A stretch of 39,866 bases of DNA from an uncultured Marinoscillum sp. (GTDB lineage: Bacteria; Bacteroidota; Bacteroidia; Cytophagales; MED-G16): positions 1-39,866 of the forward strand of contig CACOMW010000011.1 in NCBI GenBank assembly GCA_902628365.1, written 5' to 3'. This document shows positions 33,152 to 36,331 of the stretch, one piece after another (within the stretch, counting starts at the first letter, position 1; each line of letters opens with the position of its first letter). Under the pieces are notes generated by a model, which ran no database searches, was not told the origin of the DNA, and worked only from the letters and a program-made list of their open reading frames with translations. The position numbers and the translations under genes are program-made.

Positions 33152-33734
33152 TTTTTGTTAAATTAAAACCTATACCTATTTTTAAGTTCTCATAATCTAG
33201 AATATCAATCTTTCTAAGATATTTTTTCTGAACTAAAGTTTTAAAAGTTCTACTAATTGATGCTTTTGCCGCTTTTAATTTTTTACATTCTCCTCTTATG
33301 ATTCCTTTTTTATGATTTCCGTCCGATCTAATAAATTTTCTTCTACAAATTTCAATAAATTTTCTAGAATTTTTTTTATATATACTATTTTTAGAAAATT
33401 TATTAAGATACCCATCTCTTTTAAGTTTCAAATTAAAAAAAGACACAAGTGGTTCATAAAAACATATATGAGCTGACCCATTGGAATTTGGTTCTATATT
33501 TGATAGTTGAGTAAATGGATATTTTACTTTTAATTTATCAAGTTTTGTTTTTAAACTTATATAATCTTTGATCGATCCATTTTCCATTTTCTTAATAATG
33601 GATTTTGCTTTTTTTAGATTTGAATAAGTTATTATTGAATTTTCAAAAGCATCAGAATTCAAAGATAAATTTTCATCTATCATATTTTTTTTAGCTAAGA
33701 TAAGGATATGTTTTTGTAGTGTAGAAAGATACAT
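33123..33734 (-). CDS. unrecognised protein with a winged-helix-like C-terminus
   Basis: I do not recognise this 203-residue protein. It is strongly basic. The start LSTLQKHILILAKKN resembles the first helix of a winged-helix domain, and the end, KAAKASISRTFKTLVQKKYLR followed by IGFNLTKNGNDLAKKL (about residues 155-203), resembles the recognition helix and wing of MarR- or ArsR-like regulators. The middle (about residues 70-135) has no pattern I know. A DNA-binding role is thus possible but unproven. The 29-base overlap with the glutaminyl cyclase-like gene indicates co-expression. A promoter could lie in the nested inverted-repeat region at 33744-33805, whose nearest edge is ten bases upstream of its start. 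Confidence 0.6.
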   Translation of the reverse strand: MYLSTLQKHILILAKKNMIDENLSLNSDAFENSIITYSNLKKAKSIIKKMENGSIKDYISLKTKLDKLKVKYPFTQLSNIEPNSNGSAHICFYEPLVSFFNLKLKRDGYLNKFSKNSIYKKNSRKFIEICRRKFIRSDGNHKKGIIRGECKKLKAAKASISRTFKTLVQKKYLRKIDILDYENLKIGIGFNLTKNGNDLAKKL

Positions 33735-33743
33735 TTATCAAAA

Positions 33744-33805
33744 GATGCTATCGTATAAATATACGAAAAAAATTTTAGAAAATTAATTTTCTAAAAAATA
33801 GCATC
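33744..33805. repeat. nested inverted-repeat element containing a terminator-like palindrome
   Basis: An outer inverted repeat, GATGCTAT (33744-33751) and ATAGCATC (33798-33805), encloses two internal palindromes. One is TCGTATAAATATACGA at 33751-33766, two seven-base arms around AA. The other is a perfect 24-base palindrome at 33773-33796 that includes the stop codon of the beta-barrel gene. On the minus strand the 24-base palindrome is followed by a run of seven T residues, as in an intrinsic terminator. Folded as a whole the element would make a three-way junction. A TATATTTA sequence in the smaller palindrome is one base off a -7 box. Confidence 0.65.
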
Positions 33806-36331
33806 GGATCCTTCATAATCTGCTGTTCCACCTCTTTGAAAAGATCTTCTTTTGTTTTGATTTATTCTGTATTGAAATGATACTCTAAATTCTTGAGTTC
33901 TTCTCCAAGCAAATTCTCCAATTGTCTTAAAATTATCTCCTTCTCTTTCATATCTTCTTAATCTTGTTTTAAGTAAATCTCTAACATTTAAACTAATAGT
34001 TCCTTTCTTATTTTTAAAAATATCTTTAGATAATCCCAAATCTATTGCATAAGAAGATAAATTTTTTCCTTGTGGATCTTCAGAAGGACCTCTATAATCA
34101 AATGTTATTTGACCATCAAGACTTTTGTTAAACATTTTTATATTATTATTTAGTCTTGTTCTCCAACTATATGACTTAGCATAAAAATTTTGATCTAGAT
34201 ATTGTCCTTTAGTTTCTGATTGAAAAAAATTAAATGAACCTGTAGTGCTGAGCCAATCGGTGTAATCAATATTCCCATTTAATTCAATACCATAAGCATT
34301 CGTATAACCTAAGTTAACTGGTTTGTATATAGAATATCCTTTATCGTTAACATCTAAAATTCTTTCAATTTCGTCGTTTGTATATCTATAATAAGAACCT
34401 ATATAAAAGTTTCCTGATTTAAATTCTTTGAGAAATCCTATTTCATATGAATCTGTTAGTTCTGGCTCTAAAAAAGGGTTACCAGTAAATGTAGATCTTG
34501 AATCTCCTAAACCATAAAAGGGATTCAAATCCCAAAATCTTGGTCTTCTTAATCTTTTACTATAACTAACTTGTAATGATTCTTTATCACTAAATTTATA
34601 AGTCGCAAATGCAGATGGAAAAAAGTTAGAATATTTTAATTTAGTAGTTTCATTAGTTTCAATTAAATTAGCAAAGAAATCAGTATTTTCATATCTTAAA
34701 CCCAATTGGTATGAAAAACTTCCATGTTGGTTTGCAAACTGTGTATATAATGAGTTTACATCTTGATAATAATCATATTTGTTAGATGGTGGTATTCTTC
34801 TCCATTCAGAACTTGGAGATAACTGTTCAGCAAAAAAATCACTTTTCATTTTATCATAATCTCTTTTATAACCAAATTCTATTTTGCCCATTTCCTTATT
34901 AAATGGATATACATAATCTAATCTGATACTTTGATCATAACGATCACTTGTTTGTGTTGATCTTTGATTAATTACTCTTGAAGTATTATAATTTGTTTCT
35001 TCGTATAAATTATTACTATCACTAGTATTATCACTCCACGAAAAGTTAATCTTTAAATTGTGTCCTCTTTTTTTAAAATTTTTAGTATAGGAAAAACTGT
35101 AACTAACATTATCATAATCACTTTCTGAGTTTTCATTTCTTAAACTTTTTGCAATTTCTACGTTAGATGAATTATAATCGACATAGTTATTGACGCTTGT
35201 TCCGTCTCTGCTACCAAATCGGCTACTAAAAGAAAAATTAAAAATATTATTTTTGTTTGGATAAAATGAAAATCCAGCTCTGGTTCCAAAGGAGAGGCTA
35301 TTACTTGTTCTGTCTCTGTTTGTAAGTGAAGTATATGTTGTATCAGGTAGAAAAAAATCAGAGTCTGTATATCCACCACCTTTAGTTTCTCTCAAACTTG
35401 TATTAATACTAGCAAAAACTGAAAATTTACTTTTTCTATAATTAAAACTTGACGATATTCCATATTGACTTGGATATCCTCCATTCACATTTACTGAACC
35501 ACTTAATCCTTTCATCCTTTCCTTTTTTAAAATAATATTTATAATTCCAGCAGAACCTTCAGCACTGTATCTAGCAGAGGGATTTGTTATTATTTCAACT
35601 TTGTCAATTTCATTTCCTTGTAATTGTTTGAATGCATTTGCACCATCTAAACCCATCATACTTGCAGGTTTTCCATCCACTAATATTCTAACACTTTCTG
35701 ATCCTCTTAGACTTATATTTCCTTCAATATCTAAATCAATAGATGGTATATTTTCCAAAATTTCTTCTGCAGTTCCTCCTTTGTTACTTAAATCTTTTCC
35801 AACATTAAATACTCTTTTATCAAGCTTTAATTCAAGGCTACTCTTTTCAGCTCTTACAGTTACTTCATCTAGACTAGTAGCGTCTGATGATAAATAGATA
35901 TCTTTTAAATCTATATCTGTATTTTGAAAAGAGAATGATAAATCTATATTTTTATTTTCATATCCAACATATGACACATTAGCATATAGGTTAAATCCTC
36001 TATTTGGAATAGTCATTTGAGAAGTTCTATTTTCTCTAATTTTTTTCATTACGTCTCTCGGATTGAACTCTATTTTAAATTTTCCATTTTCATCTGATAT
36101 ACCTCCTGAAACTAAAATTGAGTCTTTAGTGAAAATACTGATCGAGGCGAAAGATAATCCTTCATTTGATTCAGAATCTAGTAATTTACCTTTAAGAGAC
36201 ATAGTTGACATTTGAAAATTTTGATAAGAACCTTGTGACCACTGTGGTCTTCCTTGTGAAAGCAATTCTAAAGAAATAAGTAAAAGGAATGTTAGAAGGT
36301 AGTGTTTCAACATAAACTTACAACGAAACAT
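33791..36331 (-). CDS. outer-membrane beta-barrel receptor with carboxypeptidase-like regulatory domain
   Basis: The 846-residue protein has a signal peptide (best start Met7 at 36313, MLKHYLLTFLLLISLELLSQG). A carboxypeptidase regulatory-like domain lies at about residues 48-135, and a TonB-dependent plug domain at about 155-270, with EEILENIPSIDLDIEGNISL, VRILVDGKPASM and NPSARYSAEGSAGIINIILKK. The rest is a large barrel rich in aromatic and polar residues, with SYSKRLRRPRFWDLNPFYG near 580. This is the Bacteroidota outer-membrane beta-barrel group related to TonB-dependent receptors. The ligand is unknown, and no SusD-like lipoprotein or degradative enzyme is adjacent to suggest a glycan. 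A TAGCTTTG box lies upstream, and the stop codon sits in the palindrome at 33773-33796. Confidence 0.87.
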   Translation of the reverse strand: MFRCKFMLKHYLLTFLLLISLELLSQGRPQWSQGSYQNFQMSTMSLKGKLLDSESNEGLSFASISIFTKDSILVSGGISDENGKFKIEFNPRDVMKKIRENRTSQMTIPNRGFNLYANVSYVGYENKNIDLSFSFQNTDIDLKDIYLSSDATSLDEVTVRAEKSSLELKLDKRVFNVGKDLSNKGGTAEEILENIPSIDLDIEGNISLRGSESVRILVDGKPASMMGLDGANAFKQLQGNEIDKVEIITNPSARYSAEGSAGIINIILKKERMKGLSGSVNVNGGYPSQYGISSSFNYRKSKFSVFASINTSLRETKGGGYTDSDFFLPDTTYTSLTNRDRTSNSLSFGTRAGFSFYPNKNNIFNFSFSSRFGSRDGTSVNNYVDYNSSNVEIAKSLRNENSESDYDNVSYSFSYTKNFKKRGHNLKINFSWSDNTSDSNNLYEETNYNTSRVINQRSTQTSDRYDQSIRLDYVYPFNKEMGKIEFGYKRDYDKMKSDFFAEQLSPSSEWRRIPPSNKYDYYQDVNSLYTQFANQHGSFSYQLGLRYENTDFFANLIETNETTKLKYSNFFPSAFATYKFSDKESLQVSYSKRLRRPRFWDLNPFYGLGDSRSTFTGNPFLEPELTDSYEIGFLKEFKSGNFYIGSYYRYTNDEIERILDVNDKGYSIYKPVNLGYTNAYGIELNGNIDYTDWLSTTGSFNFFQSETKGQYLDQNFYAKSYSWRTRLNNNIKMFNKSLDGQITFDYRGPSEDPQGKNLSSYAIDLGLSKDIFKNKKGTISLNVRDLLKTRLRRYEREGDNFKTIGEFAWRRTQEFRVSFQYRINQNKRRSFQRGGTADYEGSDAIF

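Follow-up and report, generated by a model that had tools for sequence, protein, structure and literature searches.

The sigma-28 (FliA) -10 box reads GCCGATAA. Intrinsic (rho-independent) terminators are recognised as a stem-loop with a G+C-rich stem that is followed, on the gene strand, by a T-rich tract. Structured RNAs are recognised by base pairs that compensatory changes keep, shared cis-regulatory sites by an identical sequence in the same orientation before unrelated conserved genes, and REP-like repeats by their presence in several copies. For the Bacteroidota, the available part of PMC9723704 gives TAnnTTTG as the -7 box of the sigma-A promoter and also describes alternative-sigma motifs of Flavobacterium psychrophilum.

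The window analysed here is a stretch of 39,866 nucleotides from an uncultured Marinoscillum sp. It contains a junction between two minus-strand genes, a receptor gene and the P0001 gene, with 56 bases between the receptor stop (33791) and the P0001 start (33734). An earlier note had described a 62-base nest of inverted repeats at this junction, spanning 33744-33805, and both its coordinates and its arms were recovered (Table 1). The nest is most likely an overlap of a regulatory site with a terminator-like hairpin particular to this species and with the 3' end of a reading frame. With rather more confidence than doubt, the locus is taken to be an ordinary minus-strand gene junction, in which a weak terminator lies beside a lineage-specific cis-regulatory site as two independent signals nested by chance.

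Table 1. Features at the junction between the receptor gene and the P0001 gene, in window positions.
Feature	Position	Strand	Remark
Outer left arm GATGCTAT	33744-33751	.	6 of 8 bases (33746-33751) inside the conserved element
Outer right arm ATAGCATC (+ strand reading)	33798-33805	-	Within the receptor's last codons, D-A-I
CGTATA-AA-TATACG dyad	33752-33765	.	Minus-strand TATACG half is part of the conserved element
Perfect 24-base palindrome TTTTAGAAAATTAATTTTCTAAAA	33773-33796	-	Includes the receptor stop codon; terminator-like
T7 tract	33766-33772	-	Follows the hairpin (gene strand)
Conserved element TTTATACGATAGCA	33746-33759	-	End lies 11 bases before the P0001 start codon
TonB-dependent-receptor-like / OMP_b-brl_3 beta-barrel gene P0002, 846 aa	33791..36331	-	Stop codon 33791-33793
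P0001 gene, 203 aa	33123..33734	-	Possibly a winged-helix DNA-binding protein

On the plus strand, the 62 bases fold to -16.3 kcal/mol, against -3.25 +/- 1.87 kcal/mol in 200 shuffles (z -7.0). The minus (gene) strand also folds to -16.3 kcal/mol (z -5.6 against shuffles), and the nest is thus far more stable than shuffled sequence on either strand. A genomic background was drawn from a 300 kb sample together with the window, folded as 62-nucleotide segments every 15 bases on both strands. In this background, 298 of 45,148 segments reached -16.3 kcal/mol or better, as did 7 of the 13,772 segments with equal or lower G+C; six of these seven represent three terminator-like places, a hairpin plus a T-run, each counted on both strands. 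Perfect palindromes of at least 24 bases occur twice in 340 kb and in none of three shuffles. The outer arms had been thought unlikely to arise by chance, a claim that fails when they are taken alone, because comparable pairs (8-base arms with at least 3 G+C, spaced 30-60 bases apart) are common: 36 were counted in 300 kb, and the window has 10, the arms of the nest among them.

The palindrome at the end of the receptor gene folds into a 10-bp stem with a 4-nt loop, and the T-rich tract follows on the gene strand. It resembles an intrinsic terminator in that the hairpin stands at the stop codon and seven T come after it. It differs in its single G-C pair, in its folding energy of -5.8 kcal/mol and in not being retained in the 13 other family junctions, where the longest perfect palindrome has 12 bases. 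Among 265 sampled ORF ends, two carry a stem of at least 10 with a T tail, the receptor end being one of them, and none was found at shuffled ends or in ORF-internal control stretches. A consensus terminator scan did not list the hairpin, because the scan demands at least three G-C pairs and the hairpin has one; it is therefore called terminator-like only. The earlier assignment of a terminator to the beta-barrel gene is plausible for the palindrome itself, given the stop codon inside it, the T7 behind it and the rarity of such ORF ends, and finds no counterpart in the 13 other family junctions. The palindrome and T7 are plausibly a predicted weak, AT-rich intrinsic terminator. In RNA form, the end of the receptor gene makes a 10-bp hairpin, nearly all A-U, followed by seven U, and would act as a weak terminator of the receptor transcript in the window's species.

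The left part of the nest overlaps a 14-base minus-strand element, TTTATACGATARCA, which is kept in 14 of 14 aligned junctions (with one base altered in one of them) while the flanking sequence drifts. These junctions comprise the 14 P0001 loci, less a second, N-containing copy in G007, plus the junction of G006, whose contig stops just within the P0001 gene. Mean column identity across the alignment is 49%, gapped columns counted. By comparison, the gene-strand consensus of the element, TTTAT[A/G]CGATA[A/G]CA, is invariant in 12 of its 14 columns, and the form TTTATACGATAACA is found in 12 of the 14 junctions. The two variable columns differ solely in g1, the genus of the window (G001 in one column, G000 and G001 in the other), and the other half of the CGTATA-AA-TATACG dyad is not retained outside this genus. 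The end of the element lies 8, 9, 11 or 12 bases before the P0001 start codon, which is TTG at 12 of the 14 loci and ATG at 2. As this distance varies modulo three, it is the nucleic acid that is conserved and not a protein.

Searches of the family genomes showed where else the element occurs. The exact 12-mer core, TATACGATARCA, has 21 matches in 15 family genomes, against 6 for the reversed pattern; sorted by eye, 13 of these lie before P0001, 7 lie between gldJ and rsbW/ybeY, and 1 is coding. When one mismatch was allowed in the 14-mer, 68 matches were found in 13 family genomes against 50 for the control, a count not clearly higher, so only near-exact copies stand out. Some of the 68 were sorted, with gene names read from translations, and the inspected copies (folD-like, methyltransferase-like, phosphatidylserine-synthase-like and in a 579-aa gene downstream of mnmG) were dropped as they lie inside reading frames. 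The string TTTATACGATA was also observed in both g1 genomes, at G000:C31:5660-5670 and G001:C4:73014-73024, close to the 5' end of a further reading frame that appears to be conserved; no obvious ATG was seen near either copy.

At the second locus, the same element lies in the same orientation 2, 4 or 5 bases before the ATG of an RsbW-like gene behind gldJ. The copy between gldJ and rsbW/ybeY was located at L092:3549-3562 (G006:C6), with equivalents in G001 (one base changed), G002, G004, G009, G011, G012 and G013. The genes there encode GldJ, an RsbW-like ATPase (HATPase_c_2), YbeY and MnmG; G002 gave no rsbW match, yet the element is present before its ybeY. Identical sequence in identical orientation is thus found before unrelated conserved genes, P0001 and rsbW/ybeY, as in a shared cis-regulatory site, at two loci only. 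The suggestion that the nest serves the next gene as a promoter or as a site for a regulator to bind is supported in part, as the conserved element overlaps its left half and stands before P0001 and before a second gene. Separately, CGTATA, the reverse complement of the TATACG core of the element, occurs 38-41 bases upstream in 6 of the 8 gldJ-locus copies, the exceptions being G001 and G002.

Like the sigma-A and F. psychrophilum alternative-sigma motifs described in the available part of PMC9723704, the element is short and directional, and has a TA step just before genes. Measured against the -7 box given there, it reads TATACGAT, with CGAT where TTTG would be expected. A further difference from the motifs in that part of PMC9723704 is that k-mers of the element are not consistently enriched between genes. 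The TATACGA k-mer occurs 4 times in intergenic and 19 times in coding sequence in a G000 sample (a raised intergenic density, on small counts), and 0 and 13 times, respectively, in G003. No consistent -33 box was seen by eye near the element. The sigma-28 (FliA) -10 box has the CGATAA core in common with the element, which is a resemblance and not an assignment; the element differs in having no identified -35 box and in lying very close to the start codon at rsbW. A survey of sigma factors with a general sigma-70 model singled out no candidate reader of the element. A TATACGATAACA string found in two versions of one E. coli CRP paper was taken for chance.

As it departs from the Bacteroidota -7 box and its k-mers show no consistent intergenic enrichment, the element is regarded as a narrow site. 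From its direction and its placement before two unrelated conserved genes, it is best read as a putative transcription-control site, either a promoter core or an operator. At the receptor junction, it would start or control a P0001 transcript with a short leader.

P0001 itself may be the reader of the element. Matches to this protein were found in 13 of the 59 genomes searched (its own included), all within the window's family, and a search of named genomes returned two loci, both in uncultured Marinoscillum sp. Of the 13 genomes that gave P0001 matches, 12 have the receptor gene next to a P0001 homolog, an arrangement also seen at the G006 junction; G002 gave only a weak receptor match, though a receptor-like end is visible at its junction. 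In G007, two contigs (C43 and C44) each carry the receptor and a P0001 homolog, with closely similar junctions, one of which has ambiguous bases; this is perhaps assembly redundancy. The P0001 members have in common a conserved C-terminal stretch with the consensus DGNHKRGIIRGECK. Searches placed P0001 in no Pfam or NCBIfam family and gave no PHROGs match above noise and no PDB relative. The description of this neighbour as winged-helix-like draws on weak hints, namely HTH_Crp_2 (E 0.13), MarR_2 in one other member (E 0.27) and a low-confidence helix-strand-strand-helix C-terminus in an otherwise poor AlphaFold model (3 sequences, mean pLDDT 45.7); it did not gain a confident domain.

These same helix-turn-helix hints are consistent with autoregulation, in which the element would be the binding site of P0001 itself, at its own gene and also at the rsbW locus. 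The site abuts the start of P0001, and protein and site were both seen only in the window's family, the element being absent by eye from the 120 bases before rsbW in 5 of 5 order-level relatives. Set against this reading are the lack of a confident P0001 domain, the non-palindromic nature of the 14-base element, and G013, which carries the rsbW site without a P0001 match in an assembly that is 74% complete. Autoregulation is therefore a tentative proposal and, on balance, rather unlikely.

It is also conceivable that the element works as RNA, with possible control of translation. In most g3 junctions, a dyad, TTTTATAC-GATAACA-GTATAAAA, stands directly before the start codon, and 83.8% of its cells pair, compared with at most 61.4% when the dyad is slid along the alignment. 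Its covariation score, however, equals the shuffled mean (267/500), with no covariation beyond that in shuffles, and by eye the dyad is missing from the rsbW copies and from G000. A role for the element as RNA is decidedly unlikely.

The earlier note had also raised a three-way-junction RNA. In this explanation, positions 33744-33805 would work as a unit within genus g1, for instance as a regulatory or processing structure, and the strong fold on both strands is in its favour. Across the 14 aligned rows, 62.6% of 273 cells pair in the proposed structure, a small excess over shuffled alignments (61.5%, with 6 of 500 as high), and sliding the structure along the alignment gives no more than 56.0%. 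Changes on both sides of a pair were found in 3 of the 273 cells, against 1.1 in shuffles (13/500). In G001, the sole relative from the same genus, helix 1 pairs at 8 of 8 positions with one G-U and helix 3, the CGTATA helix, at 5 of 5 with two G-U, so that three changes are tolerated. The minimum-energy fold of the homologous 63-nt stretch (-7.1) also closes an outer stem.

Outside the genus, most of the pairs are gone. Pairs 32-92 and 35-89 of the outer stem are present in 2 of 13 sequences, helix 3 has its two outermost pairs in 2 of 14, and helix 2, the palindrome, retains 2-5 pairs in the 12 rows outside g1. Even in G001, helix 2 pairs at only 7 of 10 positions and the full proposed structure scores +2.3 on the 63-nt stretch. 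The fold of the 84-nt G001 junction is hardly more stable than that of shuffled sequence (z -0.98, equalled or surpassed by 31 of 200 shuffles), and the same holds for another G001 stretch (z -0.84). An Rfam search of 33500-34100 gave no meaningful match (best E 3.6). Apart from the 3 both-sided cells, pairs kept by compensatory changes, as in a structured RNA, were not found in the 14 rows; within the genus, the changes are one-sided G-U changes in helices 1 and 3 of one relative. Furthermore, the persistence of the outer arms can be explained without RNA structure, since one of them codes for the end of the receptor and the other belongs to the conserved element. The closing outer stem, which pairs receptor codons with the end of the element, has most likely arisen by coincidence. 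The three-way junction is accordingly very unlikely, with the pairing of helices 1 and 3 in G001 the part of it that stands and conservation beyond the genus the part that does not. A REP-like or mobile repeat, to which the nest is alike in palindromic anatomy only, can be set aside almost entirely, as the copy search of this 61%-complete assembly returned the nest itself and the other strand of the palindrome as a single copy.

The favoured account therefore remains a weak terminator and a lineage-specific cis-regulatory site that overlap by chance. In a more far-reaching and quite unlikely extension, the element would be read by an orphan DNA-binding P0001 or by a dedicated sigma factor, coupling the TonB-receptor locus to the gldJ-rsbW-ybeY-mnmG locus in uncultured Marinoscillum-like bacteria. 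A strikingly stable fold can come from ordinary signals that overlap, and what the nest leads to here is a conserved element together with an orphan protein family of uncultured bacteria. Should the element prove to be a true two-locus regulatory site, it would be the first regulatory handle in this family.
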